The notes under the pieces: generated by a model
What the model was told of the DNA's origin: nothing
What the model saw: the letters and a program-made list of their open reading frames with translations, nothing else
Database searches by the model: none
NCBI GenBank assembly: GCA_963575645.1
Contig: OY754470.1
Coordinates: 24,162,501 to 24,226,500, forward strand
Length of the DNA: 64,000 nucleotides
Source of the DNA: Xanthostigma xanthostigma
Lineage: Eukaryota; Arthropoda; Insecta; Raphidioptera; Raphidiidae
Direction of reading: 5' to 3'
Position numbers and translations under genes: made by a program
Part shown: positions 2,400 to 63,413 of the stretch, piece by piece
Numbering within the stretch: the stretch's first letter is position 1
How the letters are laid out: every line of letters begins with the position of its first letter

Positions 2400-2951
2400 T
2401 CGTCAATATGAGTGTCGATCGCGTCGCTTGGCGTCGATGCGGCCGTGGCGTCGCGACGATTGGCTGCGACAGTCGTATGCGTGAAATGGCGTCGACTAGG
2501 TCACGAAGGACGGCTATTGGCCGGCGTTAGTATTGATTCCCGCACCGCTCCGCGCGCGCGGGCAAGCCAGGATCGACGGCGCGGCGGCACTATTGTACAC
2601 TAGTCACAGTGCGCTGTCGGTGGCGACTTTACAACCGCAGCGACTGGCTACGCGAAAACTCACACACACACGCACATACACACACACACCTCTCTGATCA
2701 GTCATCCGTCGGTTGGTGGTGTGTGGATTGATTGATTATAACGAAGAAATATTAAAAAAGAGCGGGTCGAGGGCGCGCGACAACTGCCCCCCAAGTGCCA
2801 AGTCGAGCGTTCAGTTATTAAAAGGCGATAAGGTCGGCGGTGTTGTTGTTAATCTCTCAATGCGGTCCGGTTCGATCGGCAATCGGCGACGTGTGCTGCT
2901 GATGTTGTCAGTGTCAGAAGCCCGTGCCGGAGGTGGCTGGTGACGTAGGGG
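2400..2951 (+). promoter_or_regulatory. CpG-rich 5' region of slo with CA microsatellite
   Basis: Base composition changes sharply to GC- and CpG-rich, unlike the AT-rich flanks. An imperfect (CA)n tract lies at about 2660-2692. The block runs into the slo start codon, which follows an in-frame TAG at 2946-2948. It is the likely 5' untranslated region and promoter-proximal region of this slo first exon. slo genes in insects use several alternative promoters, so this may be only one of them. No transcription start was determined. Confidence 0.5.
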
Positions 2952-3257
2952 ATGACTTGCGACGAAGCGGCTACCGAGCCGCCAACAATAAATGATTGTC
3001 TCAAGGTGCGTAAGTGGTGGTGTTTCCTTCTGTCGAGCATCTTCACGTTCCTTGCCGGCCTGCTCATCGTCCTGCTATGGCGCGCGTTCGCCTTCCTGTG
3101 TTGCCGCAAGGAGGCGGAACTCGGTCCGAACGACCCCAAGCAGAAGGAGCAGAAGGCGGCGCGCGGCAAACAGGAGTTCGAAGGCACGTTCATGACCGAG
3201 GCCAAGGACTGGGCTGGCGAACTTATTTCCGGTCAAACCACCACCGGTCGCATCCTG
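2952..3257 (+). CDS. slo: slowpoke (BK calcium-activated potassium channel alpha subunit), first coding exon, 102 codons (partial)
   Basis: slo encodes the pore-forming subunit of the large-conductance calcium- and voltage-activated potassium channel of nerve and muscle plasma membranes. This exon gives the short extracellular N-terminus, the conserved NDCLKVRKWWCFLLSSIFTF into transmembrane segment S0 (about residues 22-48), and the intracellular S0-S1 loop. The loop carries a CCRK cysteine pair, a position palmitoylated in mammalian BK, and the hallmark stretches LGPNDPKQKEQKA, FEGTFMTEAKDWAGELISG and QTTTGRIL. The ATG is fixed by an in-frame TAG just three bases upstream. The exon stops in phase 0 at ATCCTG|gtgagt. 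S1-S6, the pore and the RCK domains must lie in later exons; none was seen downstream in the window. The base composition is much GC-richer than the surroundings, as expected for a conserved coding exon. Confidence 0.95.
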
Positions 3258-3951
3258 GTGAGTCTTCATGTTTTTACCCTCTGCAGGTTCTAGGATAATT
3301 ATTGCCAAAGCTGAGTCTCTGTAGAATTTTTAAACAACAGAATGCGTTAGGCAGTGAGACCTTCTTGTTAGTTTAAGCTGCAGGTTACGTGTCTACAGAA
3401 ACTCAACTGAAACTAAAAAATCCACTACATACACCTTCTGTTAACTTGTTGTTGAAAGTAAAAGCTATTTATTTATCCCCTTGGTAAGTTAATAAAAGCT
3501 AGATTACCAGTGAAGAATCATATTCGCCACACAAAGGAGAAACAGAACGTACCCAGTACGTCCATCTTTTGTTTTGTTTATAGTTACCAGTACCAGAGAC
3601 TAGGTTTTCGTACATTTTATTTTGTATTTGATTCTTGATGCCGTTTAACAGAAGGTGGATTAATTGGAACTAAGCTTATATTTACCAAAGTTTTGATGCA
3701 GTTTATTAAAAAATAAATGTTTATCTAAAAAAAAACAGTTCGTTTCATTTTTTGTAGTGTTCCCAAATGTGCTTTCTTAAAGATACTCTTTAAAAATAAT
3801 TGTACCATATCCAATATTACTGGCAGCCTGCTCGAAAAGCTATTTTTGACATTTTTAACTTTTTTATTTTGTTTATTCATCATGTTGAAAAAAGTCAAAC
3901 ATTCCCTCAAAAGTCAACATTTGTTTAGCATCTATATATAATCTACAATGT
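3258..3951. other. AT-rich intronic sequence, no gene seen
   Basis: Apart from the splice donor at its left edge, this stretch shows no convincing reading frame, RNA gene or repeat boundary. Confidence 0.4.
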
Positions 3952-39244: not shown

Positions 39245-39380
39245 ATGTTCAAATCTTAGATTAACGTCTGAATAGAACTCTTCAAATAAATATCATCTAT
39301 TGAATTATTGAATTATAGTTTTATAATTTTTTGTCAATATACAGTCTGAAAAAATTGGTCGATAATTTTATTTATTTGAA
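39245..39380. mobile_element. Fragment related to the hammerhead-bearing terminal repeats at 57.6 kb
   Basis: TTAGATTAACGTCTGAATAG, AACTCTTCAAATAAA and GAAAAAATTGGTCGATAATT match outer parts of the inverted repeats at 57574-57930, but the ribozyme-like core is absent. Confidence 0.5.
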
Positions 39381-40404
39381 TTATAATATGTGCTTATTTA
39401 ATCTAGTTTAGTTTTTTAGTTTTTTGACCTCGTTTTGTGATTTTAAATTGATTTTGAATGCTTTATCATTCGCACAAATTGTTAAAATTATATTTTTAGA
39501 GTTTCGTATTTAATAGTCCAGGAGCTATCAACAATTTTAGGGTAGATATTTGACGTAGCGTGAAAATTTTTGTAACACTTCTTTTGTAATGTCTGAATAC
39601 AAAATCGAAGACTTGGCTCATTGCTCATTATTCTGTCTCTCCGTCTATCAAAAGTGTTTCAATCATGGGGGCATGCCGAAATGTGAAACCCGTATCTCGA
39701 TGGCAAGAAAGGGTTTGTAAAACACAACTTAAGATGTGTTTCATAAGTAGGTACACATTTCTCATGAAATTGAATGTTCATCCAGAAATTGATATCCGAC
39801 GGATGTTAGTGGTAAATTATTTAAAGTTAATAACCTGTTATCAGTTCATTTCCGTGTAAAGAACGTAAACAACCAAATTTCTATTCACTACAAAGGTTAG
39901 ATATGTAAACAGAACAAAGTTGTCGGTGTTTTTTATCAACAAAATGTGGTAGCAAATACTAAAAAGACCACAATTATTTTGTAAAACTTTTTTTACAGAT
40001 CATTCTTAATATATTTTATAAATTTTGACATGTATGCTATTGTAGATACTTTTATTATTGTACGCCCGAACAGACAATTCATTGCTTTCAGATACACAAA
40101 TAACCAAATGTTTGTTTAACTTGACGCAGTGTTTATATTCTGATTGACGTTCTTAAACAAAACTAAGTGGATCGCAAAGATTTTAATGTAATTGATACCA
40201 TTGTTCAAATACTTTTATTACTACGGGCGCGAAATTCCATTTAATGGATTTCAAAAAAGATATTTTCTGTGAAAGTTTAGTTTTAATACATCGAGATAAA
40301 ATTGAAATAAAAAAAAATGTTTATCGTCAACACTAATACATAAAACCATAACGAGACAGCTCTCTCTTTATATTTTGGGTATTTTGTTAGATACTTCGAT
40401 TTTT
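39381..40404. other. AT-rich intronic sequence, no gene seen
   Basis: Contains a solo end (about 39535-39625) of the foldback family at 34177-34824. Otherwise nothing supported. Confidence 0.35.
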
Positions 40405-43512: not shown

Positions 43513-44360
43513 GTTATTTGTCAGAGAACATTATTTTAGCGTTTTGGTTGAAGTTTTTAAGCTTTCCAATTAAAAAAACAAACAGTATCTAAAAATTTTT
43601 ACATGTCAAAACGACATCTTTCCGATTGGTTGGGCGAGGAATCAACCGATCAGGATGATTTTTTTTAAATACTGGTAATTGAGTCTACTTTAAATAGTAA
43701 ATTGCCAGTGGGGGTTTAGATGCACTGGAATGAGATGCGCGCGGACAACCGGGCACAAGAACTTTTGGCAAAAAACTTGTAACTTTGGACGCTAATAACT
43801 TTTTTCCAGTACATTGGAGAGTTTTACTTGATAGTCATTCAATTAAAGAGTAAATCCTGACGAGTCCAACGACTCCAGAACGATTGCTGTGGGATTATTA
43901 GAACGCGAGATATGAGCAATTGAAGAAAAAAAACAGAATCCAAGATGGCGGCGGACGGGGCAATTTGGAGAATGCGCAAATTCATGGTTAAGGTCTCCAT
44001 CGAAGACCCTTTCGAATGAGCAACAAAAAAAAAATGTATCTGAAATTTTTGGATCAATTCCTAAATGCACTGAGCTATTATGCAGAATTGTTACACCTAG
44101 TAAATATTTTCAAATTAAAAGAACGGAGAATATTTCAGCTCCGTATGATTTTTATAAACTTTGATTGTTGCACTTCTAAAAATGCCCAAAAAAAAATTTG
44201 CCAAAACGAATAAATGCGTTAATGTATAAAATACGCAAAATTAAGTACATACTATTTAATCTTAATATATCGTTATCATGTATTTCATTTCCACTTTCCT
44301 CCATTTTTTAATGCTACAAAGTCTTAATGACTGGTGCTTTATTTTAAATGAAAAAATAAA
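43513..44360. other. Intronic sequence, no gene seen
   Basis: The segment about 43720-44060 has a GC content above its surroundings (CCAAGATGGCGGCGGACGGG) and overlapping frames on one strand, probably old transposon DNA. No domain recognised. Confidence 0.35.
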
Positions 44361-44451
44361 TTAGAAGATTAAGAAGGAAGAATCCTGGTGGCATAGGATC
44401 GATGAAAAAAGCAAATACATACTGAAGATTTTTATTGCATTTTTATTATCT

Positions 44452-44482
44452 GACGTTTCGGCACACTTTATGCCATCTTCGG
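44452..44482 (-). ncRNA. Hammerhead-ribozyme-like core, copy A
   Basis: Minus strand reads CCGAAGA, then T, a 4-bp stem GGCA/TGCC closing TAAAGTG, then GAAACGTC. This follows the hammerhead order CUGANGA-stem II-GAAA with a self-complementary ACGU stem III, except that U4 is C and one extra base precedes stem II. Activity is doubtful. Confidence 0.5.
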
Positions 44483-44654
44483 AGAATCAATGCTGTCCAT
44501 TTTTTCAGTATTATTGTTATGTAAACATAACAATAATACTGAAAAAATGGACAGCATTGATTTATGTAAACATAACAATAATACTGAAAAAATAGACAGC
44601 ATTGATTTATGTAAACATAACAATAATACTGAAAAAATGGACAGCATTGATTCT

Positions 44655-44685
44655 CCGAAGATGGCATAAAGTGTGCCGAAACGTC
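44655..44685 (+). ncRNA. Hammerhead-ribozyme-like core, copy B
   Basis: Mirror of copy A in the right arm: CCGAAGA-T-GGCA...TGCC-GAAACGTC. A short stem I of TCT before the core with AGA after GTC is possible. Same U4-to-C departure from consensus. Confidence 0.5.
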
Positions 44686-44772
44686 AGATAATAAAAATGC
44701 AATAAAAATCTTCAGTATTTGCTTTTTTCATCGATCCTATGCCACCAGGATTCTTCCTTCTTAATCTTCTAA

Positions 44773-45365
44773 CAATTGAACAGGATCATCATCTCTATAA
44801 ATTATTAGAGTTTTCTTTCACAATGAAAAAATAAATATATTAATTTTTTAAGTAACGAGCCTTTTGCGTTAAATGATACAGTTTTCATTAAACAATAGCA
44901 GGCCGTTGTTCTTTTGTTCACTTCATTCATAACTCATAAGTCAGTGAAAAGGCAGAAAGTAGCAATGCTCTGTACCGTCGTAATTCTTCTTCAATCATGA
45001 ATTATGAGTTGCAACTGACAACATAGCTGCTCGTACAGCGTTTCTGTGAAATGTTTGTTTGCAGCTTCGGTCATTGGAAAAAAAGAATTTCACTGGAAGT
45101 TTTCCGTTTAATTAAACGCGTATTGGCACAAAGAAAAACTTACAACTGCGACTCTTGGAACAGTCTAACTATATAGATGACGTTTTCGTAATTTCGTAGG
45201 CTTCTTTCCGTATCCGTTGTTATAATGAAACTTGACGCTTCTAGATGTTTTATTGTAAAGAGCTGAAATTAAAGCTAATTAAACACCTAATACATACAGT
45301 GACCTTGGTGAAATACGTATAGAAAAAATACCAGTAAAAGCAATAATACATAAACAAACAAAAAA

Positions 45366-45790: not shown

Positions 45791-47008
45791 ATAGGCAAGC
45801 AGTTCTTTGTGTGACTATCTCCTTCTAAACTACTGGACCGATTTCGACGATCCAGGTGTCGTTTGAAATGGCTCGATGTACAAATGTGTAATGCTATATT
45901 ATGAGGCTTTGGAAAAACAATCTGTGTTAGGTATATCAAAATAATTATAAATACAGTAAATTATTTGAACACAAAGGCAAAAAAACACATTTTATTTTTT
46001 TTCGGGAGGGGTTCGAAAAAATTAAGAATGTGAATTTGGCATAAAAATCGCAATATGGGGTTAGAATAATAATCTAAACAAATTTTTCATAATATTTTTT
46101 CGATATCTCTTACGCTACGCAAAATATCGAGAATTGATCCTGTTTGCGAATTCGTTGTAGGCTGAGTTTCTAAATTTCAGATTTAAGTTTAACATTTTAA
46201 AAAATGTGATCCTTTAATATGTATGACTGCAAAAATTCAAATCTGTATTCCTTCAAATATACCTTCCTTCCTTCAAACATACGAACTAGCGTACTCTAGT
46301 TACTTATATCTCTATGGTTCACACACGGTCCAATTCCAAAGCAATCTTTCCTTCTTGTTGAATAAAGAAGTTTCATCAAACAATTGGCCTTATTCAGTGA
46401 TCAAAGTTTTATAGTAAAAAGAATTTTTCTAGAACGAATATAGGATTATTTTTTGTCAATGTGAAACTTAAGTGCTATTCGACATTTTGAAAAGTCTATA
46501 AAATAACGAAATACGAGTATTTTAACTCACTTGTTTTATAATAAAAAATGAAATAAAAGAAACATTAACTTTTATAGGTCAAGCAACGTCCCAGCATCAA
46601 ATAATCCGAGGATATGAAAGGAATTAAATCGGAATTACAGCTGTAAAACACACTTAAAGATCGACTTTTCCAATCAGATCGAATAAAACAAAAGAAAATC
46701 GGGTAAAAACAAAAAAGAACACCGAAAAGTTTTTCTGTGTCAAGGCAGTAGGTAATAATCAAACGTGCGTCAATAATTTATAGTATAGGTGGGCTGGAGA
46801 GTGGAACAAAAGAACGGTGTCGGGCAACGTAATTTCGCGTCTCTTTTTTTTCATTTCGTGCACTACATATCAAATAGCTAGATGCACAGTGGCCATTTAA
46901 GGTGAACACATAACCTATATTCTTGATGTTAATTAGAGACTCTTTCATAAGAAACTGGAATAGCTGTAATCATTTATAGTTTAGTCAATGAGTGCTCATA
47001 AGGGGCAT
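45791..47008. other. Intronic sequence with repeat scraps
   Basis: 45830-45870 (CTACTGGACCGATTTCGACG) resembles the internal part of Helitron-type repeats, as at 56860. 46280-46325 is a solo end of the 21973-22662 foldback. No gene supported. Confidence 0.4.
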
Positions 47009-48181
47009 CTAGATGGAAAAGTCGAAAGCAGAACATTTGACTTAGGATGTTTGGACTAGTTAGGAGATAAACATACTAAAAGTCCTTGCCCCTCTGAGGT
47101 ACGCCCGAAGGGGGGGAGCACAAAGAAGGTCCCGTTTTTTGGTTTTTTGCTTTCATCTCGAAAACGGTACGTCGTACGAAATTTTGTTGTAATACATAAT
47201 GAAAGCTGATCAAATTCTCTACAACTTTAGCTTTCACACTTTTTATCTATCTCCAATCTTTGCCTAGCTATGAGCTCCGAAAAATGGTCGAAAAATGATC
47301 GATTTTCAAAAATGTGTTAAATTCTCTGTAGCACATTGTAACAATACGAATTTGTCATAATCATTTCGTATCGCTCATCCAAACTATTAAAAACACCCAC
47401 ACACTATTAAAAAATAACATAAGCTTTAACCTATTGAAGGCCCTCGGCACATTAGGATTATGGGGCCCCTATGACCTTAACAGAGCACTATTTTGTTAGA
47501 ATAGACAAAGAAAATAGATAAACAAGGTTCTAGATTCTAAGTCGAGGAATGTGATATAAAATGCATATATTTAAAAGGATCACGTTCCCAATTTTAACAT
47601 GAAGGACACAAAAAAAATAAGTATATGAAAAATAGTTCACTGATGATTTTTGTTTAAAACAGTTTAGGTACTAAGTATACCATTAAACTAGGGGGTCCCT
47701 ATCGATCGCGGGGCACTGGGCACGTGCCAGAGTGCCCAGTGGGAAAGAGGGCCCTGTGTGGAGGTACTCCCAGCTTATGTTATTTTTTAATAGTGTGTGG
47801 GTGTTTTTAATAGTGTGGATGAGCGATACGAAATGATTTTGACAAATTCGTATTGTTACAATGTGCTACAGAGAATTTAACAAATTTTTGAAAATCGACC
47901 ATTTTTCGGAGCTCATAGCTAGGCAAATATTGGAGATAGATAAAAAGTGTGAAAACTAAAGTTGTAGAGAATTTTATCAGCTTTCATTATGTACTCCAAC
48001 AAAATTTCGTACGACGTACCGTTTTCGAGATGAAAGCAAAATACCAAAAAACGGGACCTTCTTTGTGCTCCCCCCCTTCGGGCGTACCTCGGAGGGGTAA
48101 GGACTTTTAGTATGTTTATCTCCTAACTAGTCCAAACAAAGTTCCTAAGTCAAATGTTCTGCTTTCGACTTTTCCATCTAG
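47009..48181. mobile_element. Giant foldback element, 1.17 kb, arms ~410 bp
   Basis: 47009-47425 and 47770-48181 are inverted copies with only scattered differences. Matching blocks include CTAGATGGAAAAGTCG at the ends, CCCGAAGGGGGGGAGCACAA/TTGTGCTCCCCCCCTTCGGG, CGAAAACGGTACGTCGTACG/CGTACGACGTACCGTTTTCG, and TAGCTATGAGCTCCGAAAAA. The ~345-bp spacer holds a GC-rich hairpin (CACTGGGCACGTGCC...GTGCCCAGTG). No transposase frame. No target duplication was found. Confidence 0.9.
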
Positions 48182-48262
48182 AATTATTCGTTGCTTAAGC
48201 TATTATTCACAGCGTAGACAAGATAAAAAAAAACATGAGTGCGTGAAACCTTTATGCGCGCT

Positions 48263-54410: not shown

Positions 54411-54480
54411 CATATCGTACATATTCTACGATATTAATATTTTGTCGTCCGTCATCATTACTGATTAATGCGCGTCTTGA

Positions 54481-54983
54481 TCTCCCGACAAAATATCATC
54501 TTGACTAAATATCCTACGGGCAAAATATCCCCCGACATAATAACAATTACGGGGTCGTGTCGACGCGATGTTGTTTTTTTGCGCAGTGAAAAGGGAAACG
54601 CGTTTGAGGGGAGTTCTTTGAAAAATAATTACGGGGTCGTATCGATGCGATGGCGTTTTTTTTGCGCAGTGAAAAGGAAAGGGCGTTTGGGGGAAGTTCT
54701 TTAAAAAACAATTACGGGGTCGTGTCAACGCGATGGTGTTTTTTGCGCAGTGAAAAGAGGAACGCGTTTGAGGGGAGTTCTTTCAAAAAAAATTACGGGG
54801 TCGTATCGATGCGACGGCGTTTTTTTTTGCGCAGTGAAAAGGGAAGGGCGTTTGGGAGAAGTTCTTTAAAAAACAATTACGGGGTCGTGTATACAAAGTG
54901 AGATAGTAATACAATAATTCTACACCAGTTTTGCTGATATTTTGTCGGAAGACATTTCGTCCGTAGGATATTTTCTCGGGAGA
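54481..54983. mobile_element. TIR element housing an 82-bp minisatellite
   Basis: The left TCTCCCGACAAAATATC and the right GATATTTTCTCGGGAGA are inverted ends. The inner CCTACGGGCAAAATATC/GACATTTCGTCCGTAGG blocks are also related. TGA borders both ends, a possible 3-bp duplication. The centre is a tandem array (next entry). No transposase. Confidence 0.7.
54546..54895 (+). repeat. Tandem repeat, four units of 81-84 bp
   Basis: Units start with ATTACGGGGTCGT at 54546, 54628, 54711, 54792 and again at 54876 (partial). Each contains TTTTTTGCGCAGTGAAAAG and a GGAGTTCTTT or GAAGTTCTTT end. Units 1 and 3 share AACGCGTTTGAGGGGAGTT, units 2 and 4 GGGCGTTTGGG, so the true period is a ~165-bp dimer. 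Long open frames on both strands arise from the repeat and are not genes. Confidence 0.9.
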
Positions 54984-56130: not shown

Positions 56131-57451
56131 TAACAATAGCTTCTGGAAAGGTGTCACATAACGATTTGTCGATGAAAAGCTATCTAGGATGTTTAGGTCG
56201 CGGAATTCTACGGTGTTCCGTGTTGCATCGATATTTTTATGTGCTTTCGTGTAACGCGCTCAAGAATACTTTCTTTTTGTATGCGATCACGCAATACAGC
56301 ATCTTACGTTGTATATTGTTTTGCGTGATACGGAATGGAAAATTAGATTTTACTACGTCAGATATATTACGACTGCAAATTTTTACATTCCAAAGATTGC
56401 TTTTTATGATAAAACTTTTTTGTGTTTTAAACAAGGTCGCCAACTGTCAGGGTCATAAAATGGGTAATTAAAGCTCTACAGGCCAGTGCGTTTTTTATGA
56501 ATGAACAGTGCAATAAGTAATTATCTCATTTTATCTCGACAAAAACCAACTTCGAATATACTGTTCACAATGTCATTATAATTTTTACTATAAATATCAG
56601 GTTTCTTGAACATGTTTCCGTTTTTATAATTATCAATAATAAGTAGTAACCGTCTTGTTGCTCTATATTTATGAATGCAACTTTTTTTAAACACAATTAC
56701 TGTTTAATCTTACAAATAAATAAAATTGAAGTGTCTGTAATGTCAAAATAACAGCTTTTTACTAAATGCATATGAAAGTATTATACGGTACTAATAACAA
56801 AAAGACAATTTTTAAAATGTTGGTCTGTCTGTCTGTTAGTTCCGGCTAATCTCCGAAACAACTGGACCGATTTTGACGGGACTTTAGCTGATGTTATAAG
56901 GAATAACCTAGACTACTTCTAGTTGAGAAAAAGAAAAAAATTAAAACCTATGCGGACAAAGTCGCGGGTAACAGGTAGTTTGAAAAATAAAAGTGAATCG
57001 TAATTATTGTTTTTCCAAAGCCTGCTCATAACAAATCATCTAATTTGTAACGTTAAAAATCGATCTTTCAACCCTTTAAATCTACTTATCGCGATTCTGA
57101 CATCCTATTGCACGTACGTCACACCCTTTCAATTGACACGCCTTTCGTCGAAATCGGTTCAGCAGTTTAGGAGTAGATACCCGTACAAAAAAAATGCTTG
57201 CCTATTAATATAAAGGTCATTTCATATTAAATCAGCACCCTGTAAGTAAAATTTTATTATTAAAGCCTGAAAAGAATTAGAATCATTATTTAAAAAGTAT
57301 TAACAAAAAAATGCCGGGAAATGTGAAAACGTCGCTTTGATATTAATTTTGAAAAGAAATTGTTTTATTAAATTCAAATTTTTATAAATTCAATGTTGTT
57401 AGTAGTAGTAGTTTTGTTCCAAAAATATGTATATAACGAGATTTAATTTGT
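56131..57451. other. Intronic sequence with Helitron-like scraps
   Basis: 56815-56985 (AACTGGACCGATTTTGACGG; GACAAAGTCGCGGGTAACAG) and 57110-57200 resemble Helitron family interiors and 3' ends but have no intact TC/CTAG borders. The 106-codon frame at 56151-56471 has no domain. Confidence 0.45.
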
Positions 57452-57566
57452 TTGAGGAACAATTGAAAAATAAGCTTGTGGACAACGTTTCTAAAACTAT
57501 ATTTCCATCCTCAGGGCCACAAGTGATACTTTGGTCGAGCTTATTTTTCAATTATTCCTCAACCAA
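57452..57566. repeat. Small inverted repeat (~25-bp arms)
   Basis: GAGGAACAATTGAAAAATAAGCT and AGCTTATTTTTCAATTATTC pair around about 60 bp. It sits immediately next to the larger inverted pair at 57574. Confidence 0.7.
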
Positions 57567-57643
57567 ATGAAATCTCTTCAATAAATAAAATTATCGACCA
57601 ATTTTTCAGACAAATATATTAACAAAAAATATATAAATACATT

Positions 57644-57674
57644 GACGTTTCGGTACGGATTTGGTCCTCTTCAG
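57644..57674 (-). ncRNA. Hammerhead-ribozyme-like core, copy C
   Basis: Minus strand reads CTGAAGA-GGACC-AAATCC-GTACC-GAAACGTC. The spacing matches CUGANGA-stem II-GAAA exactly. Stem II has two central mismatches or a bulge. A stem I of ACA..TT upstream with AATGT downstream is possible. Confidence 0.55.
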
Positions 57675-57814
57675 AAATATGTAATCTAAAAATATAAAAA
57701 TGAATTAGTATCTACTTATTCTACAATAGAATTAAGACTGAATTTTTTAAATAATAATTCTATTTTAAAATAAGTAGACACTAATTCATTTTTATATTTT
57801 TAGATTACATATTT

Positions 57815-57846
57815 CTGAAGAAGAACCAAATCCGGACCGAAACGTC
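57815..57846 (+). ncRNA. Hammerhead-ribozyme-like core, copy D
   Basis: Plus strand reads CTGAAGA-A-GAACC-AAATCC-GGACC-GAAACGTC. The conserved core bases are intact. Stem II has two mismatches and there is one extra A before it. Confidence 0.5.
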
Positions 57847-57920
57847 AATGTATTAATTTATATATTTTTTGTTAATATATTTGTCTGAAAAATTGGTCGA
57901 TAATTTTATTTATTGAAGAG

Positions 57921-58667
57921 TTCTAATCAGACGTTAATCAAAGATTCAAATGAAATCTCCTTCAATAAATACAAAACGGATCACTTTCTAAAATAGGTGT
58001 CCAATTAATTTTTTATATAATGTATCTAAGACTAATGGCGGTATTTACGCTATTTTTTTAATTAAATATAAACTGTTTACCCATTAATTCTGAAGTTAAA
58101 ATAACTTCAGGATTCTATATTTACATTTATTATATAGTAAAATTTTAAGCAAGTTAGTAATGAAAACAAAATTCAGAAAAACGTTTACCTATCAAATTAC
58201 ATTTGCTGAACTCCCGCAGTTAATTTTGAAACAACACAATTTGAAATATTGTTAGTTGGGAACTTCTAGGCTATGCGATCTAAATTTTTTAAACTATGAA
58301 AAACCGTTTCCTGACGATGACATATTGTCAACGAAAAAATATGGCGAAGTCAGGTCGAGCTTAGAAAAACTGACCTAGTAACGATTTGAGGAACTTGGTC
58401 GAACATTAAACAGATATTGACTGCGCCATGGAAAAGGTGTAACGGTGACAGAAGTGGGATTTGAACTCTACAAATGTTCCGCCGAGGAGCGGGGAGAGTG
58501 CGGGATCGATACAGAATACCGTGACCTAGTTGAACGACTTGATGCGAAATGACTCGATGCAAAACGAACAGTTACACTCTCCTTTCTGACTACAGTCGCG
58601 CTCCGATAATCGCAAACCCGTTCAAAATATTACATTTTCTACAGAATATTTACAGTGCGTCGGTGGC
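57921..58667. other. Intronic sequence, possible SINE remnant
   Basis: At about 58440-58480 the minus strand contains AGAGTTCAAATCCCACTTC, close to a tRNA T-arm/B box, within a GC-richer patch (58340-58570). No matching A box could be fixed, so a SINE is only suspected. Confidence 0.35.
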
Positions 58668-61525: not shown

Positions 61526-61557
61526 GACGTTTCGATCCGGATTTGGATCTTCTTCAG
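61526..61557 (-). ncRNA. Hammerhead-ribozyme-like core, copy E
   Basis: Minus strand reads CTGAAGA-A-GATCC-AAATCC-GGATC-GAAACGTC. Stem II is a perfect 5-bp helix and all conserved core bases are present. One extra A precedes stem II. Best-paired copy in the window. Confidence 0.6.
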
Positions 61558-62525: not shown

Positions 62526-63413
62526 ACTAGTAGCCCGGTCCGGCTTCGCCCGAATTTGTAAATTGCCATCGTTTATTCGTCGACATACGTTTCAAAATTG
62601 GTCTCCACGAAAAGCGCTTTTATTTTAACGCGATAATAAATAGATAGATAGATAGATTTATTGGTTTAGATATACAAATCATTGTTAAAAAACCCGTCAG
62701 AGAAAAAAATATATTATATAATCAGTAAAACAGTATTTAGGGAGCATTGCTCGCTTCTAAAAATTCTTTATACGTGTAAAAACATTCTTTACCTAGATAT
62801 TTAAAAAGCGTTTTTTTTTTTAAGTTTCAAGGCTCTGATTGGAATCTATTATTATTTAAGTAGGATGACATCAAGTCGAGAGACACCCATGAAACCGTAG
62901 ATAGATCATTTTTCCAATAAAATTTCATGTGGAACACAGTCGAAAGCCTTGCTGAGGTCCATGGCAACTGCTTCAGTATGCAAACCAATGTTTTTCCCTT
63001 CAAATATCGTGTTTAAAATATTAATTATAGCTTCGATAGTTGAACCTTTAGGTCTAATAGCGAATTGGTATTTTTGTGAAAATGGCATTAGCTTCTAAAA
63101 ACAATAATATCCTTGATTTTAAAATATATTCAAAAATTTTAGAAAAAATCGGAATAATGGAGATGGGTCGATAATTCGATGGTTCATTTATATCTCCTTT
63201 TTTGTGTACTGGAATTACCTTACTAACTTTAAGTGCATCCGGAAAAATACCATTTTCAATACAACTATTGAAAATGTGAGCTAGCCTATGTTCATCCTGA
63301 AGGTCCATTCTAAACATTGGTGAAAAACATTTAAAATCGGGTGAGTAGTTTCGAAAATTACCCTTCGCATACACACATCTCTCAAAATTCGCACTCTCTC
63401 TTTATAAAGTAAC
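62526..63413 (-). mobile_element. Helitron copy split by a non-LTR retrotransposon fragment
   Basis: In minus orientation the 3' end reads GGACCGGGCTACTAG. The 5' side (about 63413, TATTAGTTACTTTATAAAGA) is a diverged form of the family start. Outer parts match the Helitron at 55586-56130 (ATTTTAACGCGATAATA; AAGGTCCATTCTAAACA). The middle is foreign retrotransposon DNA. Confidence 0.65.
62640..63290 (-). pseudogene. Non-LTR reverse transcriptase fragment (Jockey/CR1-like), frameshifted
   Basis: On the minus strand, 63290-63080 reads an RT N-terminal part with IFPDALKVSKVIPVHKKGD, NYRPISIIPIFSKIFEYILK and a decayed FLEANAIFTK. After a frameshift near 63080-63090, 63088-62906 reads STIEAIINILN, then AVAMDLSKAFDCVPHEILLE, which contains the first catalytic aspartate (motif A). 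A further decayed GFMGVSLDLMSSYLNN-like stretch follows past a stop. Motifs with the YxDD box are missing. The 3' side ends in a (TATC)n tail (plus-strand GATAGATAGATA at about 62642-62656). It is inserted in a Helitron copy. Confidence 0.8.

Follow-up and report, generated by a model that had tools for sequence, protein, structure and literature searches.

A 5'-truncated, inverted Penelope-like insertion with hammerhead-like motifs and its relatives in the genome of Xanthostigma xanthostigma

Identity and boundaries of the window element

The element found at 57577-57946 of the window (the whole stretch of 64,000 nucleotides analysed, C7:24162501-24226500 of host genome G000, 623 Mb) derives from an endonuclease-bearing Penelope-like element, inserted head to head as an inverted pair of 5'-truncated copies; comparison with the host genome settles this identity. 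Its features are very probably explained together by one Penelope-like insertion in which both overhangs were primed, the two cDNAs were joined and the motifs have since become fossil. The kind is already known, namely an endonuclease-bearing Penelope-like element with a minimal hammerhead, present as a short inverted non-autonomous copy, and the window result is by itself ordinary, an old intronic insertion.

An earlier note had placed an inverted pair of hammerhead-like motifs, one per strand, at 57574..57920. Both motifs were present as stated and the arms are real inverted repeats, with complementarity of 92% over one piece of 75 nt and 96% over another of 72 nt. The stated boundaries needed a small correction: a 13-bp target site duplication, CAAATGAAATCTC, flanks the insertion directly outside both arms (Table 1). 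A tail HMM matched the left arm at 57641-57567. With its short left tail, its right tail 29 nt longer and its 13-bp duplication, the window element was typical of the sampled pairs, and its right arm matched the 3' region of a full-length pair (L128) at 85% identity over 201 nt. The 29-nt extension resembles the optional Penelope tail of 30-40 bp mentioned in the available passages of PMC11167929 and PMC3846280; inverted copies, which the note had taken for a Penelope trait, are also described as such in those of PMC3846280.

Placement within a slo intron, likewise proposed in the note, was supported, not proved: BK_channel_a exons were found on the + strand of C7 ~90 kb beyond the window, and a second BK-type gene on C4. 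The open frame at 2949-3293 (+) reads like a slo N-terminus.

Table 1. Coordinates of the features discussed, as positions in the window
Feature	Position	Strand	Remarks
Overlapping inverted tail-only remnants, family 1	39251-39389		no ribozyme core
Second inverted pair with core motif	44362-44821		motifs 44452-44482 (-) and 44655-44685 (+)
Third-family hairpin	57438-57576	-	CTGAGGA-TGGAA-ATATAG-TTTTA-GAAACGTT; core 57485-57514 at tip
Target site duplication CAAATGAAATCTC, left copy	57564-57576		exact repeat of 57947-57959, adjoins arms
Left arm, antisense Penelope 3' end	57577-57734	-	inverted repeats; short-tail type (classed S), 5'-truncated
Hammerhead-like motif, copy C	57644-57674	-	CTGAAGA-GGACC-AAATCC-GTACC-GAAACGTC; stem II GGACC/GTACC, 3/5 pairs
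Centre between arms	57735-57754		20 nt
Right arm, long-tailed Penelope 3' end in sense orientation	57755-57946	+	
Hammerhead-like motif, copy D	57815-57846	+	CTGAAGA-A-GAACC-AAATCC-GGACC-GAAACGTC; stem II GAACC/GGACC, 3/5 pairs
Tail extension	57918-57946	+	29 nt, right end only
Target site duplication CAAATGAAATCTC, right copy	57947-57959		
Third motif copy, family 1	61526-61557	-	extra A; intact stem II GATCC/GGATC

Motif copies in the window

Family 1 designates the motif family of the window element (copies C and D and the third copy). The window has three occurrences of the pattern CTGANGA-N{10,26}-GAAACGTC, while 100 dinucleotide-preserving shuffles averaged 0.00. The sequence around the third copy matched the 3' region of the full-length relative L127 at 87% identity over 196 nt. 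Copy C lacks the extra nucleotide of the family while copy D keeps an extra A; the stem III of copy D is ACGU and, if this copy were active, cleavage would be expected after C57846.

Both copies have a disrupted stem II, which runs against their earlier reading as intact ribozymes, and the transcript of the whole unit was predicted to form one hairpin of -198.5 kcal/mol hiding both motifs. On these grounds self-cleavage of the window copies appears unlikely, as does an effect on slo splicing. No hammerhead fold was predicted for copies C and D alone, 170 and 196 of 200 shuffles, respectively, folding equally well. Stem II was formed in the predictions for the third window copy and L127 (68/200 and 117/200 shuffles as good), and stems I and II in that for L115 (26/200); the comparison with shuffles discriminates poorly, the third copy and L127 being unexceptional as well.

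The covariance-model check suggested in the note was carried out with Rfam, which gave no hammerhead match at gathering thresholds over the whole window or at E up to 10 over 57400-58000. At the same E limit, hammerhead matches were equally absent from 15 related loci that included structurally intact Penelope motifs, so the check was uninformative. The many Rfam microRNA matches in the searched regions reflected long hairpins.

Abundance in the host genome

The window element had at least 88 matches in the host genome (40 of 2445 candidates scored). Its family 1 pattern, CTGAAGAAGRNCCAAATCCGGNYCGAAACGTC, was encountered at 2049 exact places (1031 + 1018) and nowhere in the reversed control, while the general pattern CTGANGA-N{10,28}-GAAACGTY gave 19,996 (9927 + 10069) against 128; details of individual places refer to the first 100 of each of these two patterns. 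A variant class with ACTAGT for ACGT displayed 72 places against 18 in its control. The general and ACTAGT patterns themselves require the hammerhead core. In viral contigs an exact 32-mer search found no match and a looser motif pattern 33 loci.

RNA structure of the motif

The core bases CUGANGA, GAAA and UH were present in this order in the window and in the genome matches. Pairing of stem II was counted in the first 100 listed places of the general pattern, 99 of which were long enough. All five pairs were formed in 74 of these 99 when one nucleotide was skipped after CTGANGA and in none when zero or two were skipped; the skipped nucleotide was A in 67, T in 30, G in two and C in one out of 100. 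The extra nucleotide is therefore the rule and copy C is derived. The note had credited copy C with the exact spacing and copy D with one base too many, which is correct against the textbook hammerhead but reversed in this genome. Over 39 distinct half pairs the mean was 3.82 out of five, against 2.90 with the 3' halves shuffled (maximum of 2000: 3.49); as the real half pairs outscored shuffled ones, stem II covaries. This covariation, the excess of 19,996 core matches over the reversed control and the stem I of other families bear out the assignment to the minimal hammerhead class. An 18-motif alignment (A1) had put family 1 and the other families in different stem II registers, for which reason pairs were counted in Python instead.

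Stem I was considered in rows preselected for at least four out of five stem II pairs. In families other than family 1, a contiguous stem I was supported (2.42 out of three pairs against 1.40 shuffled, 12 distinct pairs, 0/5000), whereas no support for it was found in family 1 (1.5 out of three, equal to the shuffled 1.5, eight distinct pairs), where a bulged candidate, TACAT/ATGTA, was recognized by eye.

In the three GIY-YIG loci read downstream, stem III is a palindrome which differs from one to the next: ACGU in L115, ACUAGU in L114 and AUGUACAU in L113 (also in L084). The earlier view that a self-complementary ACGU replaces a full stem III was supported. Without a loop, such a palindrome would be unable to pair with itself inside one copy; the helix would therefore need two molecules or two copies. 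A descriptor scan demanding a palindromic stem III, which covered the window, the loci then gathered (L034-L038 omitted) and the 33 viral contigs, yielded 34 hits and none on reversed sequence; 20 were assigned automatically to family 1, two more (L062, L098) by eye, and one (L020) lay in a viral contig.

The families with an extra T (L083, L110, L113, L114, L116 and places of the ACTAGT class) read CTGANGATG, which places an ATG within the core of the ribozyme. For the Anolis element, the ORF is reported to begin where stem II begins, 26 bp ahead of the cut site, which would fit the place of the ATG in CTGANGATG.

The motif might alternatively be a protein-binding or reverse-transcription hairpin, cleavage having been lost in family 1, where a contiguous stem I is not supported. 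In the available passages of PMC11167929, the ribozyme of the Anolis Penelope protein (PAc) needs protein and its mutants still insert in vitro, which would suit such a hairpin; the same study did not find reads that end at the cleavage site. We nevertheless consider it unlikely: the core bases and the class of the cleavage site (C or T) are kept, although the patterns demand the core, stem II covaries and a stem I is supported in other families.

Association with Penelope-like proteins

Thirty family 1 loci, the first 30 CTGAAGAAGRNCCAAATCCGGNYCGAAACGTC places on C1, displayed upstream matches of 8 to 461 nt in their best pairwise alignments, and the tail directly followed the motif in 27 of them (exceptions L090, L091 and L096); copies of the family shared a common 3' end and varied in 5' truncation. 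The upstream part of L109/L081 was the end of an ORF matching GIY-YIG at 21 bits (Pfam cut-off 22.6; E 4.3e-4) and located, in L109, ~193 nt before the motif. This ORF end had at least 151 matches in the genome (150 of 3165 candidates scored), with open frames of up to 822 aa. In five out of the seven copies listed on C1 (<32.7 Mb), the exact family 1 motif lay on the same strand, 176-193 nt after the ORF end.

The 822-aa frame belongs to L127, a direct relative in which an intact motif starts 180 nt past the last sense codon. Searches of Pfam and NCBIfam with this ORF found no RT and nothing convincing, and a PDB sequence search at E 0.01 found nothing. Aligned over 806 positions with the 804-aa L129 protein, it reached 28% identity (E 4e-67); in the latter protein RVT_1 (E 3.1e-11) and GIY-YIG (E 1.2e-5) were both above cut-off, and PDB gave two weak hits for it. 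The putative RT of L127 rests on homology to L129. Hammerhead-like motifs were encountered downstream of the GIY-YIG domain in L113 (the stretch downstream of the L129 ORF), L114 and L115. L128 consists of two 728-aa ORFs placed head to head with their motifs outward, a 13-bp duplication and, as judged by eye, a short left and a long right tail. Full-length relatives thus display an RT and a C-terminal GIY-YIG in one ORF, with the above provision for L127. An association with Penelope-like elements, which the note had regarded as decisive, was found, and the note's description of the window element as a non-autonomous unit also stands.

Anatomy of inverted insertions

The first 100 places of the general pattern included 21 close motif pairs (<1 kb apart), of which 19 were divergent, two were on the same strand and none was convergent. 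Two types of 3' ends were distinguished, a short one and one ~30 nt longer. The sample of inverted pairs was drawn from 75 loci and the window (L034-L038, L063 and L078 being omitted as duplicates or overlaps) and comprised 61 pairs, 60 of which could be classed and one (L079) could not. One long and one short tail were displayed by 53 pairs (29 SL, 24 LS), two short tails by four and two long tails by three. Counting L093 and L094, which are the same pair, only once, the mixed type was found in 52 out of 59 distinct pairs, for which a fair coin gives a probability (of at least 52) of 7e-10, pairs of the same family being not wholly independent. About half of the loci had been picked as best palindrome matches; the C1 pattern loci alone gave 18 out of 19 (L093/L094 once).

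Of the 60 classed pairs, 35 were flanked by duplications of at least 8 bp, a length reached in 1.7% of 2931 mismatched flanks; the commonest length was 13 bp (15 pairs), and no duplication of 8 bp or more was found in the other 25 pairs. Eleven pairs of other families, drawn from general-pattern places, displayed duplications of at least 10 bp in nine cases against 1/110 mismatched controls. In eight of these nine, the homology of the arms ended within 8 nt of one copy and 18-52 nt short of the other. The placement was ambiguous in L119, and a clear target duplication was not found in L116 and L122.

No rule relating the longer arm to the tail type was found, which led us to reject the suggestion that, of two cDNAs made on one RNA, the one with the long tail follows behind the one with the short tail and is hence shorter. 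A consensus of 33 selected palindromes retained parts of the centre, so some palindromes may have been copied as units rather than formed anew.

An origin of head-to-head pairs by self-priming on antisense Penelope RNA was proposed for Adineta vaga in PMC3846280, according to its available passages, and could account for palindromes at inverted junctions and for a centre partly conserved among selected copies. It is rather improbable here: the outer ends are both sense-tail ends and differ in type in 52 of the 59 pairs, arm lengths are unequal (for example in L100) and both strands were primed in vitro in the work on PAc (available passages of PMC11167929).

Proposed mechanism of insertion

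Priming at both ends of a single cut is suggested by the tail rule, by duplications of 13 bp and by the divergent orientation. Taken at face value, an insertion ends on both sides in the sense tail, and its duplication implies a staggered cut with 3' overhangs. On the simplest account the endonuclease would leave such overhangs, ~13 nt long, each of which would serve as primer for copying a sense Penelope RNA into cDNA, starting at one of two neighbouring sites; both cDNAs would then be joined at their stopping points into an inverted pair. The pattern of one long and one short tail looks as if each of the two start sites had been used once. The motif of the arms would correspond to the minimal type I hammerhead of the parent, whose stem III may be completed only by ACGU pairing between two RNAs or copies and which probably processes, or pairs, the Penelope RNA. 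In the old window copy, with its broken stem II and its arms folding together, the motif would now be a fossil.

The reaction has a counterpart in vitro. PAc cut and extended both strands from two adjacent start sites, which did not differ between strands and whose interval equals the genomic tail (PMC11167929, available passages). These passages are silent on each site being used once per insertion. According to PMC3846280, one of the inverted pLTRs may or may not carry the tail; the tail asymmetry itself is known, and its strictness is the addition made here. Our literature search, which lay largely outside subscription papers, recognized no account of both-strand priming besides the PAc work.

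It is also conceivable, though decidedly unlikely, that the Penelope hammerhead serves primarily to clamp two RNAs which are presented to both overhangs of one cut. The stem III palindromes (ACGU, ACUAGU, AUGUACAU) would then join the RNAs antiparallel ~70-120 nt upstream of the start sites, a protein dimer would hold the paired RNAs and the overhangs would take different start sites, which would yield insertions whose two tails differ in length, one being long and the other short; dimerisation would trigger cleavage as a release step, or cleavage would simply be a by-product.

Comparison with known systems

Minimal type I hammerheads of Penelope-like elements were reportedly described by Cervera and De la Pena in 2014, and a study cited in PMC6155905 is, by its title, on an extra nucleotide in the core of a viroid hammerhead. 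Compared with minimal type I Penelope hammerheads (PMC6155905, PMC7229834), the motifs found here share the order of the core, stem II and the want of an ordinary stem III; they appear to differ by the extra A/T between core and stem II and by stem III palindromes of four, six and eight nt according to family. A hammerhead was retained in all Penelope-like sequences available to a 2017 review (PMC6155905, available passages), even though insertion by PAc in vitro needs none (PMC11167929, likewise).

The family of the window is of Penelope/Poseidon type, with RT followed by GIY-YIG in one ORF, 5' truncation, an inverted terminal copy, a short target duplication, an optional tail of ~30 nt at one end and a minimal hammerhead. 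The target duplication is mostly 13 bp long here, against 8-10 bp in the Adineta Penelope examples seen in the passages available. The abundance is unlike that of known Penelope/Poseidon elements, this one genome having 19,996 exact cores, spread over several families, and 19 divergent pairs of close neighbours within the first 100 places. These many cores and frequent short inverted insertions provide natural products for testing Penelope integration.

Retrozymes carry two same-strand ribozymes which release a circle. As described in the available passages of PMC7229834, those of metazoans share with the window element a hammerhead in a small non-autonomous retroelement, but they are repeated in direct tandem orientation, contain canonical hammerheads and have a circular RNA, in contrast to the inverted pair of minimal motifs found here. 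The retrozyme-like nature proposed in the earlier note agrees with the core and the size of the element and is nonetheless highly improbable: each strand has a single motif, minimal and not canonical, 19 of 21 close pairs are divergent and the arms pair with each other, hiding both motifs in the predicted hairpin. Two same-strand, direct-repeat hammerheads were not found in the unit and this reading was rejected. A foldback or MITE-type DNA transposon with the motif in its arms by chance, suggested by inverted arms, a short target duplication and a unit without coding capacity, is just as improbable and was rejected too, being largely refuted by the full-length relatives with their linked RT-GIY-YIG ORF and by the variable upstream extents, common 3' end and asymmetric tails of the copies.

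Other features of the window

The second inverted pair displayed the motif CCGAAGA-T-GGCAT..GTGCC-GAAACGTC and was flanked by a 15-bp duplication, AATGAAAAAATAAAT, at 44347-44361 and 44822-44836. The third-family hairpin was flanked by CTTGTGG/CCACAAG, a stem which its long arms continue; a target duplication was not found for it. The main element sits at the edge of this hairpin, and its target duplication overlaps the end of a hairpin arm.

The remnants at 39251-39389 look as if both cDNAs had stopped inside the tail. A large foldback was observed at 47008-48182, with arm pieces of 244, 137 and 46 nt (96-97%) and an end sequence that is also found near the end of L114. The open frame at 63054-63401 resembles a fragment of a LINE-type reverse transcriptase. 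Open frames of a repeated peptide were present on both strands at 54465-54901, which form a coding-like minisatellite.
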